In this document: positions 13,559 through 64,000 of the stretch, one piece after another
Position numbering within the stretch: position 1 is the first letter of the stretch
How the letters are laid out: every line of letters starts with the position of its first letter
DNA from: Acetobacter sp. DsW_063
GTDB taxonomy: Bacteria; Pseudomonadota; Alphaproteobacteria; Acetobacterales; Acetobacteraceae
Direction: 5' to 3'
DNA: 64,000 nucleotides
Assembly (NCBI RefSeq): GCF_002153745.1
Contig: NZ_JOPL01000007.1
Location: forward strand, 1-64,000
Program-made: the position numbers and the translations under genes
The notes under the pieces: generated by a model
What the model was told of the DNA's origin: nothing
The model's input: the letters and a program-made list of their open reading frames with translations, nothing else
Databases searched by the model: none

Positions 13559-13718
13559 TGTATCCGCTGCTCAGAAATATCGAGCAATGCGTGACAGTAA
13601 TCTGTCATAACGCACGGTGGCTTCGACGTCGCAAGCTCATGCCGAAGATGATTACTGCGTGAAATACCCCCTGAAAATGAGCGAGCAGTGCACGCAAAGC
13701 CCCGCCCACAAATAAAAA

Positions 13719-13750
13719 AGGCGCAAGAAATAAATCTTGCGCCTCTTCCT
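13719..13750 (-). terminator. Rho-independent terminator of the decarboxylase gene (bidirectional in form)
   Basis: A 10-bp stem, AGGCGCAAGA with TCTTGCGCCT, and a 6-base loop. On the minus strand it is followed by a CTTTTTTATT tract, and on the plus strand by CTTCCTTTTT. It lies about 37 bases after the decarboxylase stop. Confidence 0.85.
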
Positions 13751-13787
13751 TTTTCACTCCCTACGCCTCGCAGGGAGATGAACAGGG

Positions 13788-14918
13788 TCAGATATAATGC
13801 TCGGTCAGCGGCGCGAAACCATTGAAACGAGTCGAGCAGTAGGTCGACACATACGCCCCGGTCGATAAAAGTTCGACGCGATCGCCAGCGTTTAGTGCGT
13901 CCGGAAGCGCGTAGGGACTCCGCTCATACATGATGTCAGCTCCGTCACATGTGGGGCCAGCGATGGCTACAGCCGAAACGGCTCCACCGTCATGTTGCGT
14001 GCGGATGTCGTAACGGATGGACTCGCCCTCCGTCTCAGCCAAACCGCCGAAGCGTCCGATATCAAGATACACCCAACGCGGACCATCCTCGCGGCCACGG
14101 CGACTGACGAGCACGACTTCCGCAGACACCACGCCCGCAGCGCCGACGATGAAGCGTCCCGGTTCGACCAGCATTTCGGGGAGCGCATTCCCGAAATGCT
14201 TGGTCATGGCGGAGCAGATCGCGTCGCCGAACTGCTCAATCTCCGGCACGTCATCGCGATAACGAATGGGAAAACCGCCGCCGAGATTCACCATACGCAG
14301 ATCAAGGCCAGTCGCAGACAGATCTGTCACCAGCGAAGCCACACGAGCGATTGCGGCTTCGTAAGCGTCCGCCGACAACTGCTGGCTTCCGACGTGGAAC
14401 GACAGACCGTACGGGTCGAGGCCCAATTCGCGAGCATGCAGCATCAGTTCACGCGCGCTCTCGACCGTTGTCCCGAATTTGCGCGAAAGCGGCCACTCGG
14501 CGCCATAATTGTCGACGAGCAGGCGGCAATAGACCTTCGAGCCAGGCGCGTAACGGGCAATTTTCTCTAATTCCTCGAGAGAATCAAAGACATACAGCCG
14601 AACGCCGACAGCGAAGGCAGCCTGAATGGCGGATACCTTCTTTACGGTGTTGCCGAAGGAAATGTCGTCAGGGCTGGCGCCGGCGTCGAGGCAGAGACGA
14701 ATCTCCTCCCACGAAGCCGCGTCGAAACGGGAGCCGAGCGACACCAACCGCTCAAGGATGGGGCGAGCGGGATTAGCCTTGACGGCGTAGTAGATCAGGG
14801 CGAGCGGGAGCGCGCCCTGCAGGCGACGAAAACGATCCTCAACCTCATCAACGTCGACGACCAGGCAAGGCGTAGCGGGCTGCTCGTCGGCGAGGAATTG
14901 TGAAATTTTGGGTGTCAT
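13788..14918 (-). CDS. Ornithine/lysine decarboxylase, fold type III PLP enzyme
   Basis: 376 residues of the alanine-racemase-fold basic amino acid decarboxylases, making putrescine from ornithine and/or cadaverine from lysine in the cytosol. PLP lysine K47 lies in YYAVKANP. Other motifs are FHVGSQQ, the glycine loop NLGGGFP, the phosphate-binding EPGR, and the dimer-interface catalytic cysteine in GPTCDGAD. The C-terminal substrate tyrosine is in GAYVSTYCSTRFNGF. Family members in alphaproteobacteria often act on both substrates. It is monocistronic, with a long leader upstream and a strong terminator downstream. Confidence 0.9.
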   Translation of the reverse strand: MTPKISQFLADEQPATPCLVVDVDEVEDRFRRLQGALPLALIYYAVKANPARPILERLVSLGSRFDAASWEEIRLCLDAGASPDDISFGNTVKKVSAIQAAFAVGVRLYVFDSLEELEKIARYAPGSKVYCRLLVDNYGAEWPLSRKFGTTVESARELMLHARELGLDPYGLSFHVGSQQLSADAYEAAIARVASLVTDLSATGLDLRMVNLGGGFPIRYRDDVPEIEQFGDAICSAMTKHFGNALPEMLVEPGRFIVGAAGVVSAEVVLVSRRGREDGPRWVYLDIGRFGGLAETEGESIRYDIRTQHDGGAVSAVAIAGPTCDGADIMYERSPYALPDALNAGDRVELLSTGAYVSTYCSTRFNGFAPLTEHYI

Positions 14919-37170: not shown

Positions 37171-38130
37171 ATGATCCAGGTGCTTCTTACATCTCTCGTT
37201 CCAATATTCGCTATCATGGCCGCCGGTTATGTTGCTGGCAAACAAGGAAAAATTGACAACCGCAATGTCGCCAGCCTGAATGTGCTGACAATGGAGTTCG
37301 CTCTTCCCGCTGCTTTGTTCGCGACGACAGCCCGGGCTTCCCGTCAGGTTCTGGCCGAACAATGGCCGCTGCTCCTGACACTGCTCCTTGGAATGCTCCT
37401 CATATTTGCGCTGGTGTGGTGTTTGGCGCGGTTCGTGTTCGGCGCATCGGCCGCGGTCTCGGCGGTTATGGCGCTCAGCGTATCGTTGCCGAACTATGCG
37501 GCCGCCGGAATACCGCTCGCCTCCGCCGTGTTCGGAATGACCGGAAAACTCTATATTACAACTGCGATTGTCTCCGGCGCCATCGTCATGTCGCCATTGA
37601 CCCTCGCCTTTCTTGAAGCCTCCAAGGCTCAGGGGGACATCAGCGGCGTGCGGCTGCTCTTTCAGTCCATCGGTCGCTCGATGCTCAAGCCCCTCGTCGT
37701 GGCGCCGTTTCTTGGCGTGGCGGTCGCCCTTGTCGGGCTTGAACTTCCGGTTTTTATAATCCGGTCGTTCGATCTTCTCGGACAGGCGACCGCCGGCGTC
37801 GCGCTGTTCGTCACCGGTCTGATCCTGAGCGCGCAGAAAGTCTCCTGGTCACCGCGCATCATCGGACTGTCGGTTTTGTGCAATATCATACAGCCGCTGC
37901 TCGGCGTGTTGCTTGTCAGCGTCATCCCTATGCCGGCAGAAATGGCGCACGCCGTCATTCTGCTGCTCGCATTGCCTGCAGGGTTCTTCGGTCTTCTCTT
38001 CGCCTTGCGTTATCAAGCCGACAGCCGGGACGCTGGTTCGATCATGGTGGTAAGCACATTGCTCAGCCTCATCACCCTGACGGCCGCGCTATGGCTTACG
38101 GCAACGCCACTGGCTCACGCCGCTTCTTGA
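37171..38130 (+). CDS. mdcF: AEC-family transporter, probable malonate importer
   Basis: 319 residues with about ten hydrophobic helices in two repeats, matching the auxin-efflux-carrier family. The N-terminal pattern is LVPIFAIMAAGYVAGKQG, followed by NVLTMEFALPAALF and SLPNYAAAGIPLA. It sits inside the mdc operon in the position of MdcF of Klebsiella; other bacteria use the MdcLM pair instead. AGAGG lies before the ATG. Substrate and direction are inferred from context. Confidence 0.88.
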   Translation: MIQVLLTSLVPIFAIMAAGYVAGKQGKIDNRNVASLNVLTMEFALPAALFATTARASRQVLAEQWPLLLTLLLGMLLIFALVWCLARFVFGASAAVSAVMALSVSLPNYAAAGIPLASAVFGMTGKLYITTAIVSGAIVMSPLTLAFLEASKAQGDISGVRLLFQSIGRSMLKPLVVAPFLGVAVALVGLELPVFIIRSFDLLGQATAGVALFVTGLILSAQKVSWSPRIIGLSVLCNIIQPLLGVLLVSVIPMPAEMAHAVILLLALPAGFFGLLFALRYQADSRDAGSIMVVSTLLSLITLTAALWLTATPLAHAAS

Positions 38131-38199
38131 CGACGACGAGGCGTCCATGTCCGATCCGTCGCCGCCAACTTCGGCAGCACACCGGGAGGACGCCGGATC

Positions 38200-39126
38200 T
38201 TGACTATCGTCGCCATACTTTGTTCCGGGCAGGGAACGCAGCATCGAGAGATGTTTTCGCTTGTCGAGAGCGATCCCTCCGCGGAACCCGTGTTTCAGGC
38301 CGCTAGGACACTTCTTGGCGCCGACCCCCGCGCCTTCGTTCGCACAGCCCCAATGGAGCAACTGTTCTCCAACCGAACGGGGCAGATTCTATGCTGCTCG
38401 ATGACTTTGGCCGCGCACGCGGCGCTCGGACCAGTCGACGCTCGCATCGTTTGCGCAGGATATAGCGTAGGCGAACTCGCCGCCTGGGGCGTCTCCGGGT
38501 GTCTGAAGCCCGAACAGGTTCTCAAACTGGCCGCCACACGGGCGGATTTGATGGACGCCGCCAGCCCCCGTGACGCGGGACTGGCGGGAATTGTCGGTCT
38601 TCAACCCGACCGGCTGCAACGCATTCTTGCCCAGACGGGACTTTTCATCGCTATACAGAATGCCGCAGACAACGTCGTGATCGGCGGACCCATCGCCGAG
38701 TTGGATGTCGCGCTGGCTCGGGCCATGCAACAAGGCGCGTCGGTAGCCCGCCGGCTGCGCGTCTCGGTCCCATCGCACACGCCATTGCTGCGGAACGCCG
38801 TCCAGCCGCTGAAGCAATCCATAATGGAATTACAGCCGAAAGCGCCACGAACAGGCCTGCGTTTGCTGAGCGGCCTCGACGGGGAGCCCATACTGCGCCC
38901 GGAGGATGGTTGCGAACGGCTCGCCCGGCAGGTGGCCGAGACAGTCAGGTGGGACGCCTGCCTGCAAGGATGCCGCGAGTCTGATGCGCAGGTGATTCTT
39001 GAGCTCGGCCCCGGATCGGCGTTGACACGTATGGCGCGAACCTCCCTGCCCGACATTCCCGCGCGCAGCATTGATGACTTTCATGGCTTGGATGGCGTGC
39101 GGCAATGGCTGCTCCGTGCGTCTTAA
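38200..39126 (+). CDS. mdcH: Malonyl-CoA:ACP transacylase of malonate decarboxylase
   Basis: Primes the system by moving malonyl from malonyl-CoA to the holo-ACP. It has 308 residues from a TTG at 38200, set by GGGAGGA 9 bases upstream. FabD-type features are ILCSGQGTQHREMF at the N-terminus, nucleophile S89 in AGYSVGELAAW, catalytic histidine in SVPSHTPLL, and a C-terminal ELGPGSALTRM. Last gene of the mdc operon. Confidence 0.93.
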   Translation: MTIVAILCSGQGTQHREMFSLVESDPSAEPVFQAARTLLGADPRAFVRTAPMEQLFSNRTGQILCCSMTLAAHAALGPVDARIVCAGYSVGELAAWGVSGCLKPEQVLKLAATRADLMDAASPRDAGLAGIVGLQPDRLQRILAQTGLFIAIQNAADNVVIGGPIAELDVALARAMQQGASVARRLRVSVPSHTPLLRNAVQPLKQSIMELQPKAPRTGLRLLSGLDGEPILRPEDGCERLARQVAETVRWDACLQGCRESDAQVILELGPGSALTRMARTSLPDIPARSIDDFHGLDGVRQWLLRAS

Positions 39127-39924
39127 GAACCAAACGTTGCGACAGGCGACGCCTTTTAAAGGCCTGCCACAGCGAAGCCTTGCGTCATCAATCCGCGACC
39201 ACATCGCGAACAACAGCCTCTCATTGATCTAGATCATTTTAGCCCGTCAGCGAACGCGGTAGAGCGATGACGGGCGGCGCTGTTATCTGGGCGAACAGTT
39301 TGCGCCGCCCGCCACCCCGACTTTCCGGCGCCAATTAGACCTATGGTCCACATCGCAACATCGGCATGGCGCGTCGAGGCTGACGCCAGAGTCATCGAGA
39401 CGCTTTCGCTTGCTCCGTGAAAAAATCTCATCCGCAATTTCGATTGGCCGTCGATTTTTCACGTTGATTACCGACATATTGTCGGGCTCGAAACCCACGG
39501 ACCGAATAGTCTCGCCGTATGCCGAGGCTGCATCTCGCCCCCGTCTGGATATTTCCGAACCCACTGAGGGCAATCTTGGCATGGGCGCAAGGGTATGTTC
39601 GAGCCACAGATGAACGCCCCACTGCGCCGGACGCCCCCAACCTGCGGCATGCTTTCGAATTGGGATTCCTGGCGTTTCCCGGAGACGAACCTCCCAGTGA
39701 TCCGCCTGATATTCGCGAGGCCTAGCTGACCGGAGAAAGAGCACGGGAATGGGATGACCGGCATTACTGGTGACAATGTCGGCGACTTCTGCCGATGAAA
39801 GTTATCTCGTTTCGAAAACCCCTCGCCCGCCGCTCCATGCCCGTCTTACCGTTTCTCCTGACGGTCGGTTTTCCGTTGAGCTTGGTGGTGACGGAATGCG
39901 AGCCCTTTCGCCGGTTGGCGTTGT
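39127..39924. other. Junction between mdc operon and prophage DNA, no confident gene
   Basis: About 800 bases without a gene I can support. Open frames on both strands here are short, compositionally odd and lack ribosome sites. Two inverted repeats stand out: a strong hairpin at 39271-39311, and CGTGAAAAAATC at 39416-39427 with GATTTTTCACG at 39453-39463. The left prophage boundary probably lies in this stretch, but no tRNA or recognisable attachment core is present. Confidence 0.45.
39271..39311. repeat. Strong imperfect hairpin, CGGGCGGCGC stem
   Basis: CGGGCGGCGCTGTT at 39271-39284 pairs with AACAG (39294-39298) and GCGCCGCCCG (39302-39311, 10 bp). The two right-hand blocks are separated by a few unpaired bases. 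It lies about 145 bases after mdcH and has no T tract. It could be the mdc operon end or an element end. Confidence 0.5.
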
Positions 39925-40416
39925 ATGAGTCGCGCAGTCATAGCCATAGACCCCGGCATCACGGGGGCCATCGCTGTCCTGAACGACCTTGGCGGGCTGA
40001 TCGAAGTTCTCGACATGCCAACAAGCCCTGTCACGGTTTCCGGCAAGGTCCGCAACGTTGTGTCTGCGCCGCTTCTGGCGACGATGATCCAGGCGCACGA
40101 TCCGTCAGAGGTGTGGCTTGAGAAGGTGAACGCACGACCGGGCGAAGGACCGGCAGGCGCGTTTTCATTCGGTCGTGGCGTTGGCGTGATCGAGGGCGTT
40201 GTCGCAGCGCTTGGCCTGCCTCTGTCCACGGTGCCGCCAGCCGAGTGGAAGAAGGCCATGCGGTGCCCCGCCGACAAGGACGGGGCGCGGACGCAGGCCA
40301 TGCAGTTGTTCCCCGCCAGCGCTGACCTGTTCAAGCGGAAGAAGGATGACGGTCGGGCCGAGGCCGCGATGTTGGGCCGGTTCGCTCTTGGAAAAACTCC
40401 GTCGACAAATAATTGA
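39925..40416 (+). CDS. Phage RuvC-like Holliday junction resolvase
   Basis: 163 residues of the RNase H-like RuvC family common in phages. AIDPGITGAIAVL carries the first acidic residue, the glutamate in VWLEKVNA the second, and KKDDGRAEAAMLGRFAL the C-terminal aspartates. The middle FSFGRGVGVIEGVVAALG matches phage relatives. The expected role is resolving branched DNA before packaging. It is the first recognisable phage gene after the mdc operon. Confidence 0.85.
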   Translation: MSRAVIAIDPGITGAIAVLNDLGGLIEVLDMPTSPVTVSGKVRNVVSAPLLATMIQAHDPSEVWLEKVNARPGEGPAGAFSFGRGVGVIEGVVAALGLPLSTVPPAEWKKAMRCPADKDGARTQAMQLFPASADLFKRKKDDGRAEAAMLGRFALGKTPSTNN

Positions 40417-40471
40417 CTCTCGAGCGAACGGACGAAAGGAAACCAAGAAAACCAAGGTATTTATAGAAATA

Positions 40472-41038
40472 ATGGCGCAACAGAATGGAGAAATATGGAT
40501 AACGAAATTTCCATATAGCAAATATTTGTCGGATCTATCTTCGCCGTTTCGTGAAAACGCAAAACGATTTATTGACGCTATAACTAGCGCCGGTGCGACA
40601 GTTACAATCACCAACACATACCGACCACCAGAACGCATCTATTTAATGCATTGGTCGTGGATGATCTTTAAGAGAAAGTGCCAACCAGCCGATGTCCCGC
40701 CAATGACGGGCGTCGATATCACTTGGAACAGCGGGAACGTTGGCACAGATATAGCGGCAGCTACGCAAATGGCGGTCGCGTTCGGTATAGCCAGTTTGGC
40801 CGTTGCTCCCGCTCTGAACGCTACAAGTAGGCACCTGACCAAGAGCGCCATCGACATGAATATTTCATGGGCAGGCAATTTGACCATAAAGAGTCAAGCG
40901 GGTCAGGAAGTCACAATCTCTTCTGCGCCTCGAACCGGGATGAATAAGGACTTGCAGGCTGTAGGCCGTTCATATGGAGTCATCAAATTCCATGGCGGTG
41001 ATAAAGATAGACCACATTGGTCAATCGATGGCTGGTGA
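40472..41038 (+). CDS. M15-like peptidoglycan peptidase
   Basis: 188 residues from the ATG at 40472; the frame continues upstream but as shadow of the previous gene. The C-terminal half fits zinc D-Ala-D-Ala peptidases of the VanY/M15 type: TNTYRPPE at 48-54 like the substrate-binding arginine motif, H121 and D128 in SRHLTKSAIDM matching SxHxxGxAxD (with the glycine replaced by lysine), and H182 in RPHWSIDGW as third zinc ligand. There is no signal peptide. The coding DNA is less GC-rich than its neighbours. A secreted 99-residue protein follows after 3 bases. It could be an endolysin, but another lysis enzyme exists at 50520, so a toxin role is possible. Confidence 0.7.
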   Translation: MAQQNGEIWITKFPYSKYLSDLSSPFRENAKRFIDAITSAGATVTITNTYRPPERIYLMHWSWMIFKRKCQPADVPPMTGVDITWNSGNVGTDIAAATQMAVAFGIASLAVAPALNATSRHLTKSAIDMNISWAGNLTIKSQAGQEVTISSAPRTGMNKDLQAVGRSYGVIKFHGGDKDRPHWSIDGW

Positions 41039-41041
41039 AAT

Positions 41042-41341
41042 ATGAAAAATTATCTCTACGCAGGTATGCTGTGCTTATCGGTTCTCGCCTGCGCGCCGAC
41101 AGCCGTTGCCGCTCCACCTGCGGATGTTAAGAAATTTCTCAACGCCGCATACACTTGCCAATTTCTCAGTGGTGAATACGATGATTCGCTGGCTGCAGAC
41201 GACAAACAGAAAATGCAGAAAGATGTTAAAAAATATTTTCACTACGTCAGAGATAATAAATCTAAATTGAAAGAGAAATATCACAACAACATCAAAATAA
41301 TAAATAAAATCAGCAAGTATGATTCACTCGAAATCGATTAG
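41042..41341 (+). CDS. Small secreted protein, possible immunity partner
   Basis: 99 residues, not recognised. The signal peptide MKNYLYAGMLCLSVLACAP could be cleaved by signal peptidase I after AVAA, or lipidated at the cysteine in VLAC. The mature part is helical, with TCQFLSGEYDDSL near 38-50 and a lysine-rich C-terminus. It is 3 bases after the M15 peptidase gene and shares its low GC content. A periplasmic partner placed directly after a cell-wall hydrolase is typical of toxin-immunity pairs, but this is inference. Confidence 0.65.
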   Translation: MKNYLYAGMLCLSVLACAPTAVAAPPADVKKFLNAAYTCQFLSGEYDDSLAADDKQKMQKDVKKYFHYVRDNKSKLKEKYHNNIKIINKISKYDSLEID

Positions 41342-42259
41342 ATTTATTGGTGAAACTCGAAATTTTAGACTTTGTGACGAGATGCGGTGTTCCATTTTAT
41401 TTTGGGTGACTCATCTCGTAAACTGCGTGATGCATCCCAATCGCATTCATGCGTTGTTATGGATCAGGGTTACGCAGGCATCGAGCCTGCGACTCCACGC
41501 CACTGACGAAACAGGCGACGTGGAAATTTGCATTTCGGCCAATTCACCGCCTGGCTCTGTTCCTGCCTCGCCGCCCTCCCGCCGGTTAATCGGGCATGAG
41601 AGAGAAATCTGCAAGAGGGACAACACGAGGGACAGATTAGCGAACAAACACGCTAACTATTTGATTTTATAAGGAATTTTTGGAATTTGTGGCGGACCCG
41701 AAAGGATTGCGTCTCCCGAGTCAGATCAACGGCTTAGGTGTGTTAAACCATGTGTGTTGACACACGGCAGAATCAGCGAACTTTTCCAGTGTGTTAAACC
41801 TTTCCCCTTGTACCCCTCCTCCATTCCGTGCGATTCTGCGCGGGCTGCGGCGGCGTGGATGGACACGCGGGAACTTATCGGCTTGGGTCGCCTGCGCGAC
41901 GGTCAAGGTAAGCTCTCCGCTCGCGAAGAGAGCCGGTATCAAGCCCGGCCCGCAGCAACAGGTTCCGGTCTTTTGCCTCGGCGATGGACTGGCGGGCGCC
42001 GGACCCGTGCTGCTCTGCATAGCGCATCAGCCTCTCCGGTAGTCCTCGGGTGCACACGGGGCAGAGGCGAACGACTGGCTATCCTGAAGGACTACCAGCG
42101 CCGCAGCCGGTGGAAGCCCGGCAACACTCCAGACACAATCTCAGCGCACGCTCAGGCCCATGGAAGTCCGCGCCCACGTCCGGCAGATCATGCAGTGGGG
42201 CGGCAGCACGATGCACTGAGGCGCTTGACTCTCGCCGCGTGTTCTCGTTCTGTTCTTCC
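41342..42259. other. Long region without a confident gene
   Basis: Several overlapping frames exist on both strands, none with a good ribosome site or recognisable protein pattern. A minus-strand frame around 41875-42057 (containing RYAEQHGSGARQS) is the most protein-like but cannot be anchored. The stretch contains the direct repeats listed separately at 41738-41800. Confidence 0.4.
41738..41800. repeat. Direct repeats flanking a palindrome, iteron-like
   Basis: GTGTGTTAAACC occurs at 41738-41749 and again at 41789-41800. Between them is GTGTG TTGA CACAC, a palindrome at about 41752-41765 that includes a TTGACA box. The arrangement suggests a repressor or replication-initiator binding region near the start of early phage genes. 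Confidence 0.45.
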
Positions 42260-42592
42260 ATGCTTGGAAGAAGCAACCACACTCACCATCCGGCGCTCGA
42301 TGCAGCGCTGAGCGAGACGGACGTAGCAACTGCGGCCCGTCTGGGGCTGAGTCTGCACGCCGCCTGCGCGTGCGGGAGATCGGGGGTTGCACATCTAGAA
42401 TTGGTGATGCGCGACAGGCCATCGGTTCGGCGCATGACCGTGCTCGCGCTGGCCGAACGGCTGACGTGCAGCAAGTGCCGCGAGCCGTATGCAAGCGTGA
42501 GCCTGTCCGACACCGGGTGTGGCCCAGATTGCCCCGGCGTTTACCCGGTGACGTGGGGGCTCACGCTCGTGGAGCGTAAAAAGCTGGGCTGA
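42260..42592 (+). CDS. Small zinc-finger-like protein
   Basis: 110 residues from the ATG at 42260; the frame is open upstream but non-conserved in character. Two cysteine pairs, CACGRSG near 35 and CSKCREPY near 70, are spaced as in treble-clef zinc ribbons. They surround a helix LALAERLTCSK, a pattern common in small alphaproteobacterial and phage proteins of unknown function. It is the first of a set of short plus-strand genes. Confidence 0.55.
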   Translation: MLGRSNHTHHPALDAALSETDVATAARLGLSLHAACACGRSGVAHLELVMRDRPSVRRMTVLALAERLTCSKCREPYASVSLSDTGCGPDCPGVYPVTWGLTLVERKKLG

Positions 42593-42643
42593 TTGGGCCA
42601 TAAGGACTGGGCGTGAGAGTCGAGGGGCTCGTGTTTTTTCTGC

Positions 42644-42672
42644 TTGACCAATGCACCCAATGGGTGTATTTA
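42644..42672 (+). promoter_or_regulatory. Promoter with palindromic operator between -35 and -10
   Basis: TTGACC at 42644-42649 and TATTTA at 42667-42672 are separated by 17 bases. The spacer contains the palindrome CACCCA A TGGGTG (42654-42666). This is the layout of a repressor-controlled promoter. It would drive the four-gene set starting at 42728, whose last member is an HTH protein. Confidence 0.55.
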
Positions 42673-42727
42673 GATCGCATCAGGGCAATCCTGATAGGGG
42701 TGCCGCTGCGGGGCGCAGGGAATATAA

Positions 42728-43015
42728 ATGATGAGCAAAATCCTCGAAATCGCGAAGAACTCTGACCACGTCTCCAGGGTTTCCCCGTGGAAAGACCGGG
42801 TCTATCTCAGCCTTGAAGGATTTGACGCGTCCGTGCGCGGCGACCGCAACTTAAAGGTTTGGATCAAGGGCGACATCCTGACAGTCGAGTGCGCCAACGG
42901 CTCACCCACCAGCGGTATCCTGGCATCTCTGCATGGCTTGACCGACGCGATCATCGCAGCAGGAGGGGAGCGCAAGGGTTACAGCGACAGCATCAACGCC
43001 ACCTACACGCTCTGA
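42728..43015 (+). CDS. Small phage protein of unknown function
   Basis: 95 residues, not recognised. An N-terminal MSKILEIAKNSDHVSRVSPW is followed by alternating strands (RVYLSLEGF, LKVWIKGDILTVEC) and a C-terminal helix. The amphipathic strand pattern suggests a compact alpha/beta fold. It has a weak CAGGG ribosome site. First gene after the operator-controlled promoter; the next begins 12 bases later. Confidence 0.65.
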   Translation: MMSKILEIAKNSDHVSRVSPWKDRVYLSLEGFDASVRGDRNLKVWIKGDILTVECANGSPTSGILASLHGLTDAIIAAGGERKGYSDSINATYTL

Positions 43016-43027
43016 GGACGAGGACGC

Positions 43028-43285
43028 ATGTGGTACGCGATACGATCTCACTCCAATCAGGTCGCCTATGGTTGGACCGACGACTTGGCAGTCGCTGACG
43101 CGGCTGCGGACCACCTGTGGCGCATAAAGATTGACCTTGGCGATCAGCGCATCGGCCTATGCAGATACGCAGCTTACCCTCTCACAGATGCCGAGGCCGC
43201 CTCACTTGGGCTGGAGAATTGGGGGGAGCCTCTACTCTTTACGGCGGACTCAACTGTCGATGACTTTGCGACCGACGCGGCATGA
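43028..43285 (+). CDS. Small phage protein of unknown function
   Basis: 85 residues, acidic, starting MWYAIRSHSNQVAYGW. I recognise no family. GAGGACGAGG upstream of the ATG is a good ribosome site. Its stop overlaps the next start (ATGA), so the two are coupled. Confidence 0.65.
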   Translation: MWYAIRSHSNQVAYGWTDDLAVADAAADHLWRIKIDLGDQRIGLCRYAAYPLTDAEAASLGLENWGEPLLFTADSTVDDFATDAA

Positions 43286-43764
43286 CCTACCTCAACCACC
43301 TGACCCTCAACACTGCGCACATCAGGCGATCGATGCGCGACGAGGTCGCTGACGAGGTCGTAACGCATACACGGGATTTGCTCGACCGCGCGCTGGCAGC
43401 GGTCGGCGACGCCGATATGCCGATCCCAGGGTACAGACTGCACGTCGAGTCCTTCGGTAAGCGCCGCGCCATGCTCTGCACGATTTTTGAGGACACTGAT
43501 CCCGTCGTCACGTTTGGCGTCGCATCCCGGCAATCCCCGGCGTTGTGGCGCGCTCTGCGATCTCTCCAGGCAGAGGCTTGGGACGCAGCCCCGATGCTCG
43601 CTGAGCCGGACTCTCCATGGATCGCGGCCCTGATGCTGCCCGCCCTGATGCGAAATCCGGCATCAGGCCTGTGGATCGGTGATTTTGAGCGATGCGCCGC
43701 ATGGGCGTGGCTTGCCGCCGATGACAAAAAAGCGACGCCCAATGACAACAACACCGACGCCTGA
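43282..43764 (+). CDS. Phage protein of unknown function
   Basis: 160 residues, mostly helical, not recognised. The start is coupled to the gene before by ATGA. The C-terminal tail DDKKATPNDNNTDA is polar and overlaps the HTH gene by 23 bases. The position, in a short-gene early operon ending with a regulator, suggests an accessory replication or host-takeover role, unproven. Confidence 0.65.
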   Translation: MTYLNHLTLNTAHIRRSMRDEVADEVVTHTRDLLDRALAAVGDADMPIPGYRLHVESFGKRRAMLCTIFEDTDPVVTFGVASRQSPALWRALRSLQAEAWDAAPMLAEPDSPWIAALMLPALMRNPASGLWIGDFERCAAWAWLAADDKKATPNDNNTDA

Positions 43765-43954
43765 CGAGATAAGGGCGCGCCGCCTCGCTATCGGTCTCAC
43801 GCAGACCGAGGCGGCGGAATTGATCTACAGCCGCATGCGCAGTTGGCAAAACTGGGAAGCGGGCGAGCGGACGATGCACCCCGGATTGTGGGAGCTTTTT
43901 TGCCTCAAAAGTGCGACCGCTAATCCGGCCACTTCCGCCGCAAATGCGCCCTGA
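43742..43954 (+). CDS. Small helix-turn-helix protein
   Basis: 70 residues from the ATG at 43742. XRE-type helix-turn-helix: RARRLAIGLTQTEAAELIY followed by SWQNWEAGERTM. The single short domain is typical of phage or plasmid transcription regulators. It could act on the palindromic operator upstream of its own operon. Its 3' end overlaps a minus-strand microprotein gene. Confidence 0.75.
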   Translation: MTTTPTPDEIRARRLAIGLTQTEAAELIYSRMRSWQNWEAGERTMHPGLWELFCLKSATANPATSAANAP

Positions 43955-44033
43955 CTGCAAGTGCGATGACCACACCAGCGACGATGGCCCCAAAGACGCC
44001 ACCACCTGCGAACCCCGCCTGAAACTCCGTCAT
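43920..44033 (-). CDS. 37-residue membrane microprotein
   Basis: MTEFQAGFAGGGVFGAIVAG begins a 37-residue protein with one membrane helix (residues 9-28) and a basic C-terminus (RAHLRRKWPD). Its ATG overlaps the stop of the frame upstream (ATGA), which suggests real coupling. It could be a small holin or a regulatory microprotein. It overlaps the plus-strand HTH gene by 35 bases. Confidence 0.5.
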   Translation of the reverse strand: MTEFQAGFAGGGVFGAIVAGVVIALAVRAHLRRKWPD

Positions 44034-44125
44034 GCTGCGCTCGCCCGCATCTCGGCGACCAGCGCATCCAGCGCCTCACCGTTGGGCGACGCACCGTTGA
44101 TTCCGGTCCAGTTCTGACGGAGCAC
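44030..44125 (-). CDS. 31-residue microprotein upstream of the membrane microprotein
   Basis: From a GTG at 44125: QNWTGINGASPNGEALDALV is the body, ending MRASAA. The composition is ordinary for a soluble peptide and its stop overlaps the next ATG. No strong ribosome site was seen, so it is tentative. Confidence 0.35.
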   Translation of the reverse strand: MLRQNWTGINGASPNGEALDALVAEMRASAA

Positions 44126-44134
44126 ATTAACATT

Positions 44135-44170
44135 AGTACATTTATGGTACATGCTCATGTAACTTGTACT
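44135..44170. repeat. Imperfect palindrome, AGTACA...TGTACT
   Basis: AGTACA at 44135-44140 and TGTACT at 44165-44170 bracket an inner TACATG / CATGTA pair. TTTTTCTTT follows on the plus strand, so it could be a terminator for the HTH operon. The symmetry would also suit an operator for the minus-strand microproteins. Confidence 0.45.
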
Positions 44171-44258
44171 TTTTCTTTGAGTGTCGGAAAATAAAACGGC
44201 CCGCAATAGTGTTTCAGCACTATGCGAGCCTCACCGATGACTTGAGGATAGCAAGCCA

Positions 44259-44759
44259 GTGGCTAACGAAGAGATTTACGCCAACGACCCGGGCGTGCAA
44301 GAGCGTTTTTGGGCGAAGGTTAATAAGGAAGGCCCTCAGCACCCTTACGAGCCCAGTAAGGGCAATTGTTGGGAGCGCCCAGCTTCGGTCAATGACGGAT
44401 ATGGTCATTTCAAAGTAAATGGGCGAATGCTCAAGTCACACAGGCTGTCCTGTGCGCTTGTTGGGAATCCCCCTCCCAAAGGTATGCTGTGCCGTCATAC
44501 ATGCGATAATAGAGTCTGCGTTAATCCAGAGCATATATCGTTCGGAAGTCCGAGGGAAAATACAAACGATATGATCTCTCGCGGCAGGCAGGCTCGTGGA
44601 GAGCGAGCATCAAAATCGAAGTTAACGGCAGAAGAAGTCATGTCTATCATGAAAGACTTTAGAAAATACCCACAAATAGCCGCCGAATATGGAGTTGGTG
44701 ATGAAGCTATTGGCCGCATAAAGCGCGGTATCACATGGCGTCACATAACGCACCTCTAG
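44259..44759 (+). CDS. HNH homing endonuclease
   Basis: 166 residues from a GTG with GAGGA 10 bases upstream. The HNH_3-type core is SHRLSCALVGNPP, then CRHTCDNRVCVNPEHISFG with zinc-binding cysteines, then ENTNDMISRGRQ. A C-terminal DNA-recognition helix region follows, KLTAEEVMSIMKDF and AAEYGVGDEAIGRIKRG (NUMOD-like). Free-standing enzymes of this kind spread in phage genomes. Its stop codon interlocks with the convergent papain-like gene in CTAG. An AT-rich hairpin precedes it. Confidence 0.85.
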   Translation: MANEEIYANDPGVQERFWAKVNKEGPQHPYEPSKGNCWERPASVNDGYGHFKVNGRMLKSHRLSCALVGNPPPKGMLCRHTCDNRVCVNPEHISFGSPRENTNDMISRGRQARGERASKSKLTAEEVMSIMKDFRKYPQIAAEYGVGDEAIGRIKRGITWRHITHL

Positions 44760-59069: not shown

Positions 59070-59687
59070 CTACCTAAAATTCCAGATGTTGTCGATCTTC
59101 CCAGAGCGACCCAACATTGAGCGCCATCGTCCAGCGTCTGGCTTGTCTGATTTGTAGGATCTGGCAATGGCCCCGGCCACCATGTCGGCCAATTGAATTA
59201 GCGGCTCACCCTTTGAGTCTTTTAGACTCACCTTCCGAACGCACCCGGCGTCTACGCTGCGCCGTAAATAGCCGCAAAATTCCTTTTTAAAATCCCTGTC
59301 TCCAGACCCATCAATAATCACTTTGGCGTCTTTGAGAACCCCATTGTCGTGTCTAAGCATCTGCCCGATAAAGTAATTGTAAAATTTATCCTTATTCTCT
59401 CTCAGAGTTGGTGAATATATCTTTGATTTGTCAACAACAACTGATCGCGATATAAAATCACACTTACAAACTTCCCTGAAAAACTCATCCCTATAGTCAT
59501 TGCATAATTTTCCGAATTTAAACTCCGGGCCAATTTCTAATTTCTTAGATAAATCTTGTATCGATTTAATCGCATGGGCGATGGCGGATTCTGTCGTGAA
59601 GATAACCATCGTCGTAATGAAGTGTTGCGACGAACCTTTGGTAATTTTGAACCCGGCGTCGCCCGATTCATCGATGAATATCCACAT
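59070..59687 (-). CDS. DUF3800 domain protein
   Basis: 205 residues. FIDESGDAGFK at 4-14 carries the acidic pair D6/E7 and D10 of the DUF3800 family. VIIDGSGDRDFKKEF and the C-terminal LIQLADMVAGAIARSY follow, giving an RNase H-like catalytic pattern. DUF3800 genes are common in mobile elements and defence islands; function unsettled. The GC content is clearly lower than the phage structural genes. It is divergent from higBA. Confidence 0.82.
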   Translation of the reverse strand: MWIFIDESGDAGFKITKGSSQHFITTMVIFTTESAIAHAIKSIQDLSKKLEIGPEFKFGKLCNDYRDEFFREVCKCDFISRSVVVDKSKIYSPTLRENKDKFYNYFIGQMLRHDNGVLKDAKVIIDGSGDRDFKKEFCGYLRRSVDAGCVRKVSLKDSKGEPLIQLADMVAGAIARSYKSDKPDAGRWRSMLGRSGKIDNIWNFR

Positions 59688-59951: not shown

Positions 59952-60233
59952 ATGTCGATACGGTCATTCGCCTCCAAAGCTACCGAGACCCTGTTCCGCA
60001 CCGGGCGGCACAAGGACTTCTCCGGTATCGCCAAGGTGGCGGTGCGTAAACTCGATATGCTCGAAGCCGCGACAGTTCTGCAGGATCTTCGCTCTCCGCC
60101 AGCGAACCACCTTGAAGCCCTAAAGGGCGATCGCGCCGGACAGCACTCGATCCGCATCAACGACCAGTTTCGCATCTGCTTCATCTGGGGCTCATCAGGC
60201 CCAGAGCAGGTCGAGATCGTAGACTATCACTAA
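59952..60233 (+). CDS. higB: HigB-type toxin of a type II toxin-antitoxin system
   Basis: 93 residues of the RelE/HigB family of mRNA interferases. MSIRSFASKATETLFRTGRH at the start, RKLDMLEAATVLQDLRSPPA, and the C-terminal HSIRINDQFRICFIWGSSGP hold the basic and aromatic positions of HigB. Toxin before antitoxin is the usual higBA order. The promoter palindrome upstream suggests autoregulation. Confidence 0.92.
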   Translation: MSIRSFASKATETLFRTGRHKDFSGIAKVAVRKLDMLEAATVLQDLRSPPANHLEALKGDRAGQHSIRINDQFRICFIWGSSGPEQVEIVDYH

Positions 60234-60251
60234 CAGGGAGGCTTGAAGGTT

Positions 60252-60545
60252 ATGGCACGCATTATGACGCACCCCGGAGAAGTTCTCCGCGAGGAATTTA
60301 TGATCCCCATGGGGCTGAGCGCGAACGCCCTAGCCCTTCAGTTGCGCGTCCCGGCTAACAGGATCACCGCGATCATCAAGGAAGAGCGCGGCGTATCGCC
60401 CGAGACGGCGCTACGGCTGTCCCGGTTCTTCGGCACGACGCCGCAGTTCTGGATCAATCTCCAGGCGAACCACGACCTGTCGCGCGTGTCGGCTGGCATC
60501 GGCGCACAGATCGAAAAGGAAGTGGCCCCTTATGAGGCCGCTTGA
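60252..60545 (+). CDS. higA: HigA antitoxin
   Basis: 97 residues from the ATG at 60252, with GGGAGG at about 10 bases; a TTG at 60243 is too close to that site. Family start MTHPGEVLREEFMIPMGLS, then helix-turn-helix NALALQLRVPANRITAIIKE, and FGTTPQFWINLQANHDL. It neutralises HigB and represses the operon. Confidence 0.93.
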   Translation: MARIMTHPGEVLREEFMIPMGLSANALALQLRVPANRITAIIKEERGVSPETALRLSRFFGTTPQFWINLQANHDLSRVSAGIGAQIEKEVAPYEAA

Positions 60546-60914: not shown

Positions 60915-61121
60915 ATGACGACAGGTACCGTTAAATGGTTCAACGCAATCAAGGGATACGGCTTCATCGCCCCTGATGACGGGGCCCCCGACGTGTTCAT
61001 ACACATCAGCGCACTGGAGCAGTCCGGCCTGAAAAATCTTAATGAAGGTCAGAAAATCAACTACGCGTTGCAAAATGGCCGGGACGGCAAGCCCAGCGCG
61101 GTCAACGTTAGCCTTGCTTAG
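60915..61121 (+). CDS. Cold-shock domain protein
   Basis: 68 residues, a single cold-shock domain. RNP1 is in KGYGFIAPDD, RNP2 in DVFIHISAL, and the start is TGTVKWFNA. It binds single-stranded RNA/DNA. Several paralogues are usual per genome. This copy sits in phage-like DNA, so it may be a mobile accessory gene. A strong AAGGAGA site supports the ATG. Confidence 0.93.
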   Translation: MTTGTVKWFNAIKGYGFIAPDDGAPDVFIHISALEQSGLKNLNEGQKINYALQNGRDGKPSAVNVSLA

Positions 61122-61555: not shown

Positions 61556-61786
61556 CTAAACCACCTCCAACGCCCGCCTCTCCCGAAGCACGGCTTTCGC
61601 GTCCAGATCGTCCCAAATCTGCTTCAGCGCGTGCGCCGCAGTCTTCAGGCGCTCCCGTTGCTCGTCTTCCGGCAGCGCGTCCGATCCACGCTTGTTCACC
61701 ATGTTCGCCACCAAGCCGAGCGAAAAACCGATCTCGGCTGGCTCCATCCGCTCGCGCGGACGGTCGCCGTCAACCAGCGCGCTCAT
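61556..61786 (-). CDS. Small phage protein of unknown function
   Basis: 76 residues: MSALVDGDRPRERMEPAEIG, then a helical body with LPEDEQRERLKTAAHALKQI. Overlaps the antirepressor gene by 4 bases (ATGA), so it is last of a coupled minus-strand operon. Confidence 0.65.
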   Translation of the reverse strand: MSALVDGDRPRERMEPAEIGFSLGLVANMVNKRGSDALPEDEQRERLKTAAHALKQIWDDLDAKAVLRERRALEVV

Positions 61787-62607
61787 GACGCTGGCTCCGG
61801 GGTCTTGGCGAAAGGGACGGCTGCACGAGCGGTCTCCTGTTCAGCGCGGATGGCGTCGATCAGCCTCACGCTCCAGTGCCACGCCTGAGCCGTGCCCTTG
61901 GCGTGCTTTCTGTTTGTTTCGTCAAGGCGCGCGAACGGCCTACCCTTCTCGGTGGGGGCCCAATTGTTCCGATCATCCTTTTCTTGAAACCCAAGGCTGC
62001 GAATAAGCCTGTTTGCAGCCACAGCCGCCGCATGCCCGGAACCAAGGCCGAGTGCCTCGCCAACCTGCGTTGCAGTCAGGTATTTATCCTGCTCAACCGC
62101 AGGCTGATACGTGATCCCCATGATTTCGAGAGGGTTCTCGCCGCACTTTTTCTCGCAATATCGAGCGCCGTAGAAACCGGCCTGCGTGGCGTCCATTCCC
62201 ATCAGGATCGCGATGCCCTGCCCCGTCTTGAAGACAGAAAGCGGACTAGGCTTACGGATGCGTTTTGGCTTCTGCGCCGACTGCTTCCCAAAATAGCTGC
62301 GGACAAGGGCCTTCTGCACGTCCCAAGCCATGTCGTCGGTGAACGACTTGACGAGCATCAGATACCCCTGCTCGGTCAGGATCACCAACCCATTCGGGGC
62401 GGTAAATCCCATTTCTCTGGCTTCGTCCGAATTTCGGACGAAGTAATCTTCACCCTCGGTGAGCCGCGCTTTATTGTCATTAAACCTCTTGCGTGCCGTG
62501 CCTTCTGGCCTCTGATGAAGTTCATCCACCATCTTGAAGGTGACGACGCGCTGGCCTGCATACTCGACCACGTTCACAGCGCGGTCGTTGATCGTGACCT
62601 GATTCAT
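61783..62607 (-). CDS. Phage antirepressor-like protein
   Basis: 274 residues. The N-terminal part (about 1-110) resembles the ORF6N/Rha-type domain: INDRAVNVVEYAGQRVVTFK, MVDELHQRPEGTARKRFNDN and LTEQGYLMLVKSFTDD. The C-terminal part has a KYLTATQVGEALGLGSGHAA helix-turn-helix-like region and PTEKGRPFARLDETNRKH, as in KilA-C-type regions. Such proteins lift repression or adjust phage gene control. Coupled on both sides. Confidence 0.75.
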   Translation of the reverse strand: MNQVTINDRAVNVVEYAGQRVVTFKMVDELHQRPEGTARKRFNDNKARLTEGEDYFVRNSDEAREMGFTAPNGLVILTEQGYLMLVKSFTDDMAWDVQKALVRSYFGKQSAQKPKRIRKPSPLSVFKTGQGIAILMGMDATQAGFYGARYCEKKCGENPLEIMGITYQPAVEQDKYLTATQVGEALGLGSGHAAAVAANRLIRSLGFQEKDDRNNWAPTEKGRPFARLDETNRKHAKGTAQAWHWSVRLIDAIRAEQETARAAVPFAKTPEPAS

Positions 62608-63092
62608 GCTGCGCCTCCTTCAACTTGCACTTCCCTGTCTTCAGCGACGTTGCGCATAAACTCGTTGCGCTTACGTTCGAATTCAGGCAGGCTGTAGGAA
62701 GCGGTGATCTTTTGTACTGCTGTTGATGAGCCTTCAAGGAATCTCTTTTCGGCCTTTCGATGCCCAGCCCCGTGCTGCACAAGGGCGCTCAAGAATGCTG
62801 CCGCGTAATCATGTGGGACCAGACGCTCGCGCCCATTCTCTGTCGTGATCCACACGAGAAGATCGCAGTAAGGGCCGTCGATGAATGTGCGCTCTGCGTT
62901 AAGGGCGCTCTGCGGTGGCATTTTCAGGAGTTTCACCACGTCGCTCAGAGGAGAAAACGGGAGCGTCAGGCGACCGGATGGGGGCAGGAAATACCTGCAC
63001 TCCAAATTCTCCCACCTCTGCACGTGAATTGGTTTTGCGCACGAAGGCGCATTTGTGCTATCTGTCATCCGTTGAATCTCTCCAAGGTTCAC
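62604..63092 (-). CDS. Phage protein of unknown function
   Basis: 162 residues, or 154 from the ATG at 63068. LPFSPLSDVVKLLKMPPQSA and PYCDLLVWITTENGRERLVP suggest an alpha/beta core. No family recognised. It overlaps the ribbon-helix-helix gene upstream and the antirepressor downstream by 4 bases. Confidence 0.65.
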   Translation of the reverse strand: MNLGEIQRMTDSTNAPSCAKPIHVQRWENLECRYFLPPSGRLTLPFSPLSDVVKLLKMPPQSALNAERTFIDGPYCDLLVWITTENGRERLVPHDYAAAFLSALVQHGAGHRKAEKRFLEGSSTAVQKITASYSLPEFERKRNEFMRNVAEDREVQVEGGAA

Positions 63093-63289
63093 TCAGAGGC
63101 ATCGGGGCTTGCTTGGCGGCTCCCCGGTGCCTTTTCTGTTTTCAGAAGAACTGACGCGAGCAGTTCGTTAATTTCCGACGTCAGGCTGCGAACACTTCCC
63201 GCAGCGGATCGTCGAAGCGCCTCATAAACATCAGGCCTCAGCCGTAATGTCATCCGAGGACAATCTTGGAATGGGGTTGGGATTTGCAT
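63089..63289 (-). CDS. Ribbon-helix-helix (Arc-like) repressor
   Basis: 66 residues from the ATG at 63289. The strand PRMTLRLRPDVYEALRRSAA opens an Arc/MetJ ribbon-helix-helix fold, followed by SVRSLTSEINELLASVLLKT as the second helix. It heads the minus-strand operon and is divergent from another ribbon-helix-helix gene. Three palindromic operators fill the gap, so it probably binds them. Confidence 0.8.
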   Translation of the reverse strand: MQIPTPFQDCPRMTLRLRPDVYEALRRSAAGSVRSLTSEINELLASVLLKTEKAPGSRQASPDASE

Positions 63290-63304
63290 CTCCTTACGTC
63301 GTAC

Positions 63305-63378
63305 GACACTGATGTCGTGTCGCCACAATGAATGGACACGAGTGTCGTGTCAACTGGATATGACACGAGAGTCGTGTT
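63305..63378. promoter_or_regulatory. Three palindromic operators between divergent repressor genes
   Basis: Sites of form GACACGA-NNN-TCGTGTC at 63305-63321 (left half imperfect), 63335-63351 (perfect) and 63362-63378 (one end mismatch). Centre spacings are 30 and 27 bases. They lie in the gap between two ribbon-helix-helix genes and would control both. Confidence 0.8.
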
Positions 63379-63408
63379 ACCGATATTTCATTGTTTCAGG
63401 AGGCCGCA

Positions 63409-64000
63409 ATGTCTGATGATGACCGATACACCCGGATAACGCTTCGCATCCCGAAGGAACTAACTCTCAAATTAAAAGACGCCGCTGACGCTCGGTCGCA
63501 TTCTATGAATGCTGAAATTATTCAGAGATTGGAGAATACCTTCGGATCAGATTGGGACAAATTACATGAGTTCATTAAGAACCCCAGCAATACTGAAGGC
63601 TTGACCGATGATGAGCGGGAAATAGCCTGGAATATTCGCTACATGTCATCAAATGAGTCGGACAGACTGGAAAGAAGCGAGAAAAACGCGTACTTAACTA
63701 TATCTGCCATACAAGAAATACGAAAATTAAAGAAAAGCGGCGATATTAGCGTACTATTGGATAGTTTAAATAAAGAAGAGCAGCTAAGAGAAGAAAATAG
63801 AAAAAAATGGCTTTCAAGACACCCAGTTAAGTCTGAAAAGATCGCTGGTATTGAATCTGAATACGAGGAATGGGAAAACAAAATAAAGGAAATACGAAGA
63901 GAGCAGGAGGAATTATATTCAAAACTCAAAGAGGCTAGAGCCAAATCAAGAACCACAAAATTGAAGCTGAAGGCCCACAACTTAGAGATTACGAGGGATA
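63409..64000 (+). CDS. Ribbon-helix-helix protein with long coiled coil (partial)
   Basis: Open from the ATG at 63409 to the window edge, at least 197 residues. CAGGAGG precedes the start. The N-terminus YTRITLRIPKELTLKLKDAA then RSHSMNAEIIQRLEN is an Arc-type DNA-binding domain. From about residue 120 a very charged coiled coil follows (KEEQLREENRKKWL, EYEEWENKIKEIRREQEELY). It is AT-rich compared with neighbours. The fusion of a short DNA-binding domain to a long coiled coil is unusual. The 3' end is outside the window. Confidence 0.75.
   Translation, partial: MSDDDRYTRITLRIPKELTLKLKDAADARSHSMNAEIIQRLENTFGSDWDKLHEFIKNPSNTEGLTDDEREIAWNIRYMSSNESDRLERSEKNAYLTISAIQEIRKLKKSGDISVLLDSLNKEEQLREENRKKWLSRHPVKSEKIAGIESEYEEWENKIKEIRREQEELYSKLKEARAKSRTTKLKLKAHNLEITRD

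Follow-up and report, generated by a model that had tools for sequence, protein, structure and literature searches.

Two phage control regions are the closest described counterparts of the locus reported here. At lambda OR, two opposed repressors, CI and Cro, act through three operators that lie between divergent promoters. The other is immI of Salmonella phage P22, which comprises mnt, arc, sar and ant (PMC11016777); an account of sixteen P22-like phages presents immI as an ‘ant moron’, a cassette that is inserted in the late operon and is variable between phages (PMC2629481). Ribbon-helix-helix (RHH) proteins contact DNA through a β-strand (PMC3325190). The open-access literature searched yielded no account of shared three-site arrays, of matched recognition triads, or of sar variants outside P22-like phages.

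The present locus lies at one end of what we call the window, that is, the whole stretch of 64,000 nucleotides that was analysed (positions 1 to 64,000 of contig NZ_JOPL01000007.1, Acetobacter sp. DsW_063). The initial annotation had placed here two divergent RHH genes flanking three palindromes, with the second gene running past the window edge. Both genes and all three palindromes are present, and the second, mnt-like reading frame has been completed from the contig (Table 1). The layout of the locus is that of P22 immI: mnt is divergent from arc and ant, the antirepressor gene is downstream of arc, the primary repressor is encoded separately, and the module is placed between late genes. Here these are tail genes, with tape measure and sheath on one side and tail/baseplate proteins on the other. 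It differs from the ant moron as described in that the prophage carries sheath and baseplate genes, and in that loci of other Proteobacteria also have the module.

Table 1. Features of the mnt/arc/ant module (window positions; operators were obtained by palindrome array analysis)
Feature	Position	Strand	Details
ant, ORF6N-domain antirepressor (by homology)	61783..62607	-	274 aa
Second operon gene (ORF154)	62604..63068	-	154 aa; ATG 63068 start chosen by reading
Predicted sar-like antisense RNA	63071..63141	+	about 71 nt; covariance model match 63066-63141, 56 bits, training row
arc-like RHH gene	63089..63289	-	ORF reaches TTG 63328; ATG 63289 preferred start; first gene of antirepressor operon
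Antisense terminator hairpin (predicted)	63096..63133	+	12-bp stem, ΔG -24.6, then TTCTGTTT; inside arc reading frame
Operator 1 (arc side), predicted	63305..63321		GACACTGATGTCGTGTC
Operator 2 (middle), predicted	63335..63351		GACACGAGTGTCGTGTC
Operator 3 (mnt side), predicted	63362..63378		GACACGAGAGTCGTGTT
mnt-like RHH gene	63409..64000 in window, complete at contig position 64059	+	216 aa

The mnt-like frame opens at ATG 63409 with aggagg 5' of the start; it matches Pfam Arc (E 1e-7), and it has PDB profile matches to Arc and Mnt. Taken alone, the arc-like protein gives weak matches (Pfam Arc E 0.019; FitA-like RHH E 0.005); it is clear (about 5e-12) with a profile of paired RHH genes, a profile that itself includes the arc-like protein. 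This minus-strand frame would span 63089-63328 were the TTG start used. ATG 63289 appears the likelier start: the ATG CAA ATC of the window reads GTG CAA ATC in homologue L051, which backs this choice, and AAGGAG lies directly upstream, although the choice is not certain because the spacing is 0. The ‘long coiled coil’ attributed to the second protein corresponds to a predicted long C-terminal helix (residues 139-209, pLDDT mostly above 90). AlphaFold performs poorly over the RHH part of this protein (block means 51-72 up to residue 50), a result that plausibly fits a domain that folds as a dimer. In the phage collection, Pkon1 was the only source of a relative of the mnt-like protein at E≤1e-3. 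A 36-kb IMG/VR viral contig (UViG 2854540230_000007; our L011/L143) encodes the mnt-like protein at 100% identity, and the region is therefore classed as viral there too.

The gap between the preferred start codons is 119 bp long (63290-63408) and holds the three 17-bp palindromes at start-to-start spacings of 30 and 27. The three sites have one common consensus, and their joint score exceeds that of all 200 dinucleotide shuffles (p 0.005, which is the floor; z 8.8). These palindromes are real, but the exact GACACGA/TCGTGTC pattern once ascribed to all of them is found in the middle one only, which is also its sole occurrence in the 3.03-Mb assembly (69% complete); palindromes 1 and 3 each deviate in one arm. 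All three lie between divergent promoters that are weakly predicted. Operator 2 overlaps TTGACA (63348-63353, minus strand), a possible -35 of the arc promoter that was picked out by eye and is absent from the promoter scan output; the accompanying -10 is weak (3/6, by eye). Operator 3 overlaps a candidate mnt promoter that the scan did return (63360-63387, 9/12 consensus matches).

In these operators the locus departs from P22, which has one Oarc and one Omnt, carries the β-strand triads QNR/HNR, and scores a triple array that is not significant (p 0.075); the window has three like sites, a significant array, and the triad R-T-R in both of its RHH proteins. Since distinct Arc and Mnt operators are not found in the window (one consensus, identical triads), we treat the locus as a variant of immI and not as a plain member. 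Its likeness to lambda OR is that two opposed repressors apparently share three operators between divergent promoters. The differences are that the window proteins are RHH as against helix-turn-helix, and that the predicted switch would control an antirepressor, not lysis/lysogeny genes directly, with a CI-like gene also present.

Behind the arc-like gene come ORF154 and ant, the ORF154 stop overlapping the ant start (ATGA). ORF154 is an extra gene for which P22 has no counterpart; a Pfam search assigned it to no family, and 60 other genomes gave one weak match (E 9e-4). Compared with its phiAX1 counterpart, the best likeness is in the 15 N-terminal residues, where the antisense promoter (see below) is predicted. 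Ant is ORF6N-type (E 2.4e-13), which again differs from P22, and matches the anti-repressor family phrog_4608 (E 5e-39); its residues 113-274 are 48% identical to the KilA-N protein of the phiAX1 module. The window ant (61783-62607) and the phiAX1 antirepressor gene (L008 4629-5495) thus have a common C-terminal part and N-terminal domains of different kinds, ORF6N versus KilA-N, which is, by sequence comparison, domain shuffling. About 9 kb from the RHH pair, the same prophage encodes a CI-like S24 repressor (contig 72855-73598; Peptidase_S24 E 1e-12; a CI-like repressor phrog), and a YdaS/P22_Cro-like gene is divergent from it.

Several other genes are found in this neighbourhood. A HigB/HigA-type toxin-antitoxin pair (59952-60545, plus strand; HigB Pfam E 5e-17) occupies the same insertion between tail genes, and the late region of Pkon1 also has a RelE-type pair. 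A small cold-shock-like gene, recognised by eye (60915-61121, plus strand), adjoins the module; the Rfam cspA thermoregulator matches weakly there (27 bits versus a cut-off of 78). A DUF3800 protein (59070-59687, minus strand; Pfam E 3e-13) is inserted in the late gene cluster.

The RHH pair proved to be conserved when it was sought in other prophages. Two scans with an alignment of mnt-like proteins supplied 160 loci, namely the best 80 of 96 relatives and, in the viral scan, the best 80 of at least 197; the seeds, [HR]SMNAEI[VI] or SMNAEI[VI], bias the sample towards Mnt proteins of this type. Among these 160 loci (best 80 of each scan), 124 have a divergent RHH pair, in 121 cases at the matched gene; in L071, L110 and L168, all three of which are cluster representatives, the pair lies away from it. 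A further 21 loci, mostly preselected as module-like, bring the count to 144 of 181. The 144 pairs form 101 clusters at 85% DNA identity, from genome and viral sets that overlap; the called pairs in L110 and L123 are doubtful. The module layout of the window recurs in Acetobacter phage phiAX1 and in Paracoccus phage Pkon1. In phiAX1 there is a second antirepressor, with Bro-N and ANT domains (L045 11023-11784), near the S24 gene and besides the one in the RHH module. Antirepressor-type domains dominate downstream of the pairs in the 93 clusters scanned, the other 8 of the 101 having been left out as lacking a suitable ORF of ≥180 aa: ANT 24, Bro-N 20, Rha 17, KilA-N 12, P22_AR_N 8, AntA 7 and ORF6N 3, where each count gives the members of a family and families overlap. 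Eight matched phage integrase.

A 1989 report by Knight and Sauer is said, on the strength of its title, to place the specificity of Arc and Mnt in a short N-terminal region. We take the contact residues of P22 Arc to be the triad Gln, Asn and Arg, and we mapped the equivalent positions in other RHH proteins by alignment from P22 Arc. Across the 101 modules, the two proteins of a pair are identical at contact columns 6 and 8 with frequencies of 0.64 and 0.49, versus 0.20 and 0.14 in shuffled pairs (z 11.6 and 11.8); every other tested column has a z of 3.9 or less for within-pair matching, columns with fewer than 60 pairs having been left out, and the third contact, Arg, is nearly invariant. 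Kinship was handled in this test by identity thinning alone: matching persists when Mnt domains are thinned to <70, 60 and 50% identity (57, 29 and 14 pairs, respectively), and at <50% columns 6 and 8 are still the top two (n=14; z 4.2 and 6.3). Whole triads are identical in 35 of the 101 pairs, with 6.3 expected and a maximum of 14 in 2000 shuffles. The remaining 66 differ at one position or more, and groups in which Mnt has KMR and Arc has PQR suggest that one partner can diverge.

The arrays themselves are widespread in the sample: 84 of the 101 clusters have a three-copy palindrome array with p≤0.05 (71 of them at the floor, p 0.005), 17 modules being without a significant one, and in 79 of 100 cases none of 40 random windows taken from the same locus scores as high as the intergenic gap. 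Array sequence varies between modules and is largely constant within each. Bearing in mind that the contact columns match within pairs and that 84 of 101 clusters have three-copy arrays, we conclude that both RHH proteins of a pair probably share one three-site array, like CI and Cro at lambda OR. Furthermore, the Mnt triad tracks the operator among proteins that are <50% identical elsewhere: the similarity difference is 0.157 versus 0.034 for the highest of 500 permutations, in a test that covered 74 of the 84 clusters with p≤0.05, since the rest ran off the extracted region. For example, RTR goes with TGACACnAnnnTnGTGTCA, QRR with CCCACnGTGGG, KMR with TGTC..GACA, and RNR with GCACA..TGTGC; twelve Mnt triad classes have two or more members, eleven of them with a readable operator consensus. 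By comparison between modules, the matched residues and the arrays give good support to a predicted switch in which two RHH repressors use three shared sites; this half of the original proposal, which had the switch replace CI and Cro, is probable, and the replacement is not supported (see below).

The module also contains a predicted sar-like antisense RNA, the 5' end of which was placed by an extended -10 (TGC-TATCTG, 63056-63064) whose -35 is weak (3/6, by eye). This RNA would span the 3' end of arc, whose last codons lie under the terminator, together with the ribosome-binding region of ORF154, the next gene. The geometry is that of P22 sar, which abuts the ant start and ends at arc, except that the terminator is inside arc in the window and after arc in P22. 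Antisense terminators with ΔG≤-15 occur at 59 of 101 arc ends; the figures for mnt ends, other gene ends and shuffles are 10 of 101, 40 of 789 and 49 of 505, respectively. The criterion misses real cases, because P22 and L205, both with an Rfam-recognised sar, fall among the 42 modules that have no antisense hairpin at that threshold. Among Acetobacteraceae the hairpin usually falls within the arc frame and is accompanied by a recurring protein tail, KA.G...SPDAS and variants. An alignment of 26 of the 30 in-frame or near-stop hairpins shows covariation: paired cells make up 97.4%, and both sides vary in 7 of the 12 base pairs. The corresponding values for slid controls are 39-58% and 0-3. The extended -10 motif TGNTA is found within the searched stretch in 44 of the 59 copies with a hairpin (14.8 expected; 9 on the other strand), and 46 of 49 occurrences lie 39-56 nt upstream. 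Related motifs that resemble GTTTGGCGAC or CTTGGCGG recur in the hairpin loops of L002 (the window), L048, L049, L056, L059, L072 and L076, with either orientation represented among the phages; they may fit a kissing loop for sense-antisense pairing, as the U-turn idea would suggest.

In 299 genomes of the family, a covariance model of the antisense RNA gave 21 matches with E≤2e-7, all at RHH gene ends: 18 fall on, or shortly beyond, the 3' end of an RHH ORF identified by profile, and 3 fall at RHH-like frames identified by reading. Twelve of the 21 are training rows; the other 9 comprise 6 at ORFs identified by profile and 3 at frames identified by reading. Ten weaker matches include two that adjoin a profile-found RHH ORF and one that is the other strand of a strong match. 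A candidate second module in the window, where the covariance model also matches 13710-13797 (minus strand, 26.7 bits), was rejected: the site is an ordinary terminator after a gene that, judged by eye, is decarboxylase-like.

Of seven loci to which the Rfam sar model (RF00262) was applied at a loose threshold, four have a full-length match at the 3' end of arc: L205 scores 59.4 bits and so passes the cut-off of 43, and L200 (36.5), L179 (32.9) and L078 (32.5) fall below it. At E up to 5 the model gives no match in the window (L002), phiAX1 (L008) or L191. The four loci that match are from outside Acetobacteraceae, and their P22-sar-like RNAs lie just past the arc stop. Acetobacteraceae copies are like RF00262 in position, orientation, length (about 70 nt) and the terminator at the arc end, and differ in having another 12-bp stem and loop, inside coding sequence. 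The Rfam family model looks narrow.

Other readings of these elements deserve consideration. A hairpin followed by a T-run is what any plain intrinsic terminator looks like, and the cspA-like and higBA genes of the window point towards it, so that it might merely terminate upstream read-through and have no antisense role. We regard this as unlikely, given that the hairpin is fixed in position at the arc end and that most copies have an extended -10 39-56 nt upstream; moreover, P22 sar has the same geometry, Rfam sar matches four of the seven homologues tried at the same spot, and in phiAX1 the annotated genes over ~6.6 kb beyond arc (38099-44704) are all oppositely oriented. As to the operators, the distinct Oarc and Omnt of P22 provide a precedent for classical wiring, in which each RHH protein has an operator of its own and the three sites resemble one another by coincidence. 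This seems to us quite unlikely, because both proteins of the window pair have the same triad (RTR/RTR), as do those of far more of the 101 pairs than expected, and because the three window sites have one consensus.

The resemblance of three shared sites between divergent repressors to lambda OR is also what recommends the claim of the initial annotation that the RHH pair acts in place of the usual CI/Cro pair as the primary lysogeny switch. This claim has to be given up as very improbable: the prophage has its own S24 CI-like repressor gene, from which a Cro-like gene diverges, the RHH operon lies within the tail cluster and encodes an antirepressor, and phiAX1 likewise carries both the RHH module and an S24 protein. 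The tail-gene setting, the antirepressor operon and the S24 repressor together indicate that the RHH pair is not a stand-in for CI and Cro. The pair might also be unrelated to immunity, an autoregulator in the style of RHH toxin-antitoxin or plasmid-partition systems, as the phrog_795 label ‘partition protein ATPase’ would have it. We attach next to no credence to this idea, since P22 Mnt has the same label in its annotated record, HigB, the closest toxin gene seen, is separated from the pair by about 2.9 kb and has an antitoxin of its own, and antirepressor families dominate downstream of the pairs.

We consider it likely, then, that the locus is a secondary immunity module of the P22 immI type, mnt/arc/ant, with a shared operator array, an antisense RNA, and an Ant that is directed against a CI-like repressor. 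The gene order, the three-site array, the matched recognition residues, the conserved and covarying antisense terminator and the co-resident CI-like gene are observations from sequence and statistics. From them we infer binding, occupancy order, promoter positions, antisense transcription and Ant action, and we propose the following scheme. In the lysogen, the mnt-like protein would occupy the operator array and keep the arc-like/ORF154/ant operon silent. Following infection or derepression, the first product would be the arc-like protein, which, since it recognises the same sequence, would compete at the same three sites and shut down mnt as well as its own operon. With operators 1 and 2 over the candidate arc promoter and operator 3 over the candidate mnt promoter, the mnt-like protein on sites 1 and 2 would silence ant, and the arc-like protein on site 3 would silence mnt. 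The antisense RNA, which would run from the beginning of ORF154 to the hairpin inside the arc frame, would pair with the arc-ant message and limit antirepressor synthesis: the ATGA overlap would couple ant to ORF154, whose ribosome-binding region the RNA would cover. Accumulated Ant would inactivate the CI-like S24 repressor encoded elsewhere in the prophage. The antirepressor gene of the module, in other words, probably disarms the main phage repressor.

Two predicted features take this module beyond P22: matched triads combined with shared three-site arrays, and a sar-like RNA that has its terminator inside the arc frame. We lean towards the view that it is the wiring of P22 which is the exception. 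Most immI-type modules would then be OR-like, with RHH pairs that stay matched at two β-strand positions and so compete for one three-site array, and a sar-like antisense RNA would be standard, folded in Acetobacteraceae into the arc coding sequence. The results also point to antisense RNAs that escape the Rfam sar model in both Acetobacteraceae copies to which it was applied. If this view is true, the triad classes and their operators would amount to a natural RHH recognition code, a code for β-sheet DNA readers, and one textbook locus would become a widespread module with testable rules that predict the bases each RHH pair reads. It would also suggest that, with an unrelated protein fold, phages have arrived at a switch that shares its operators in the manner of OR.
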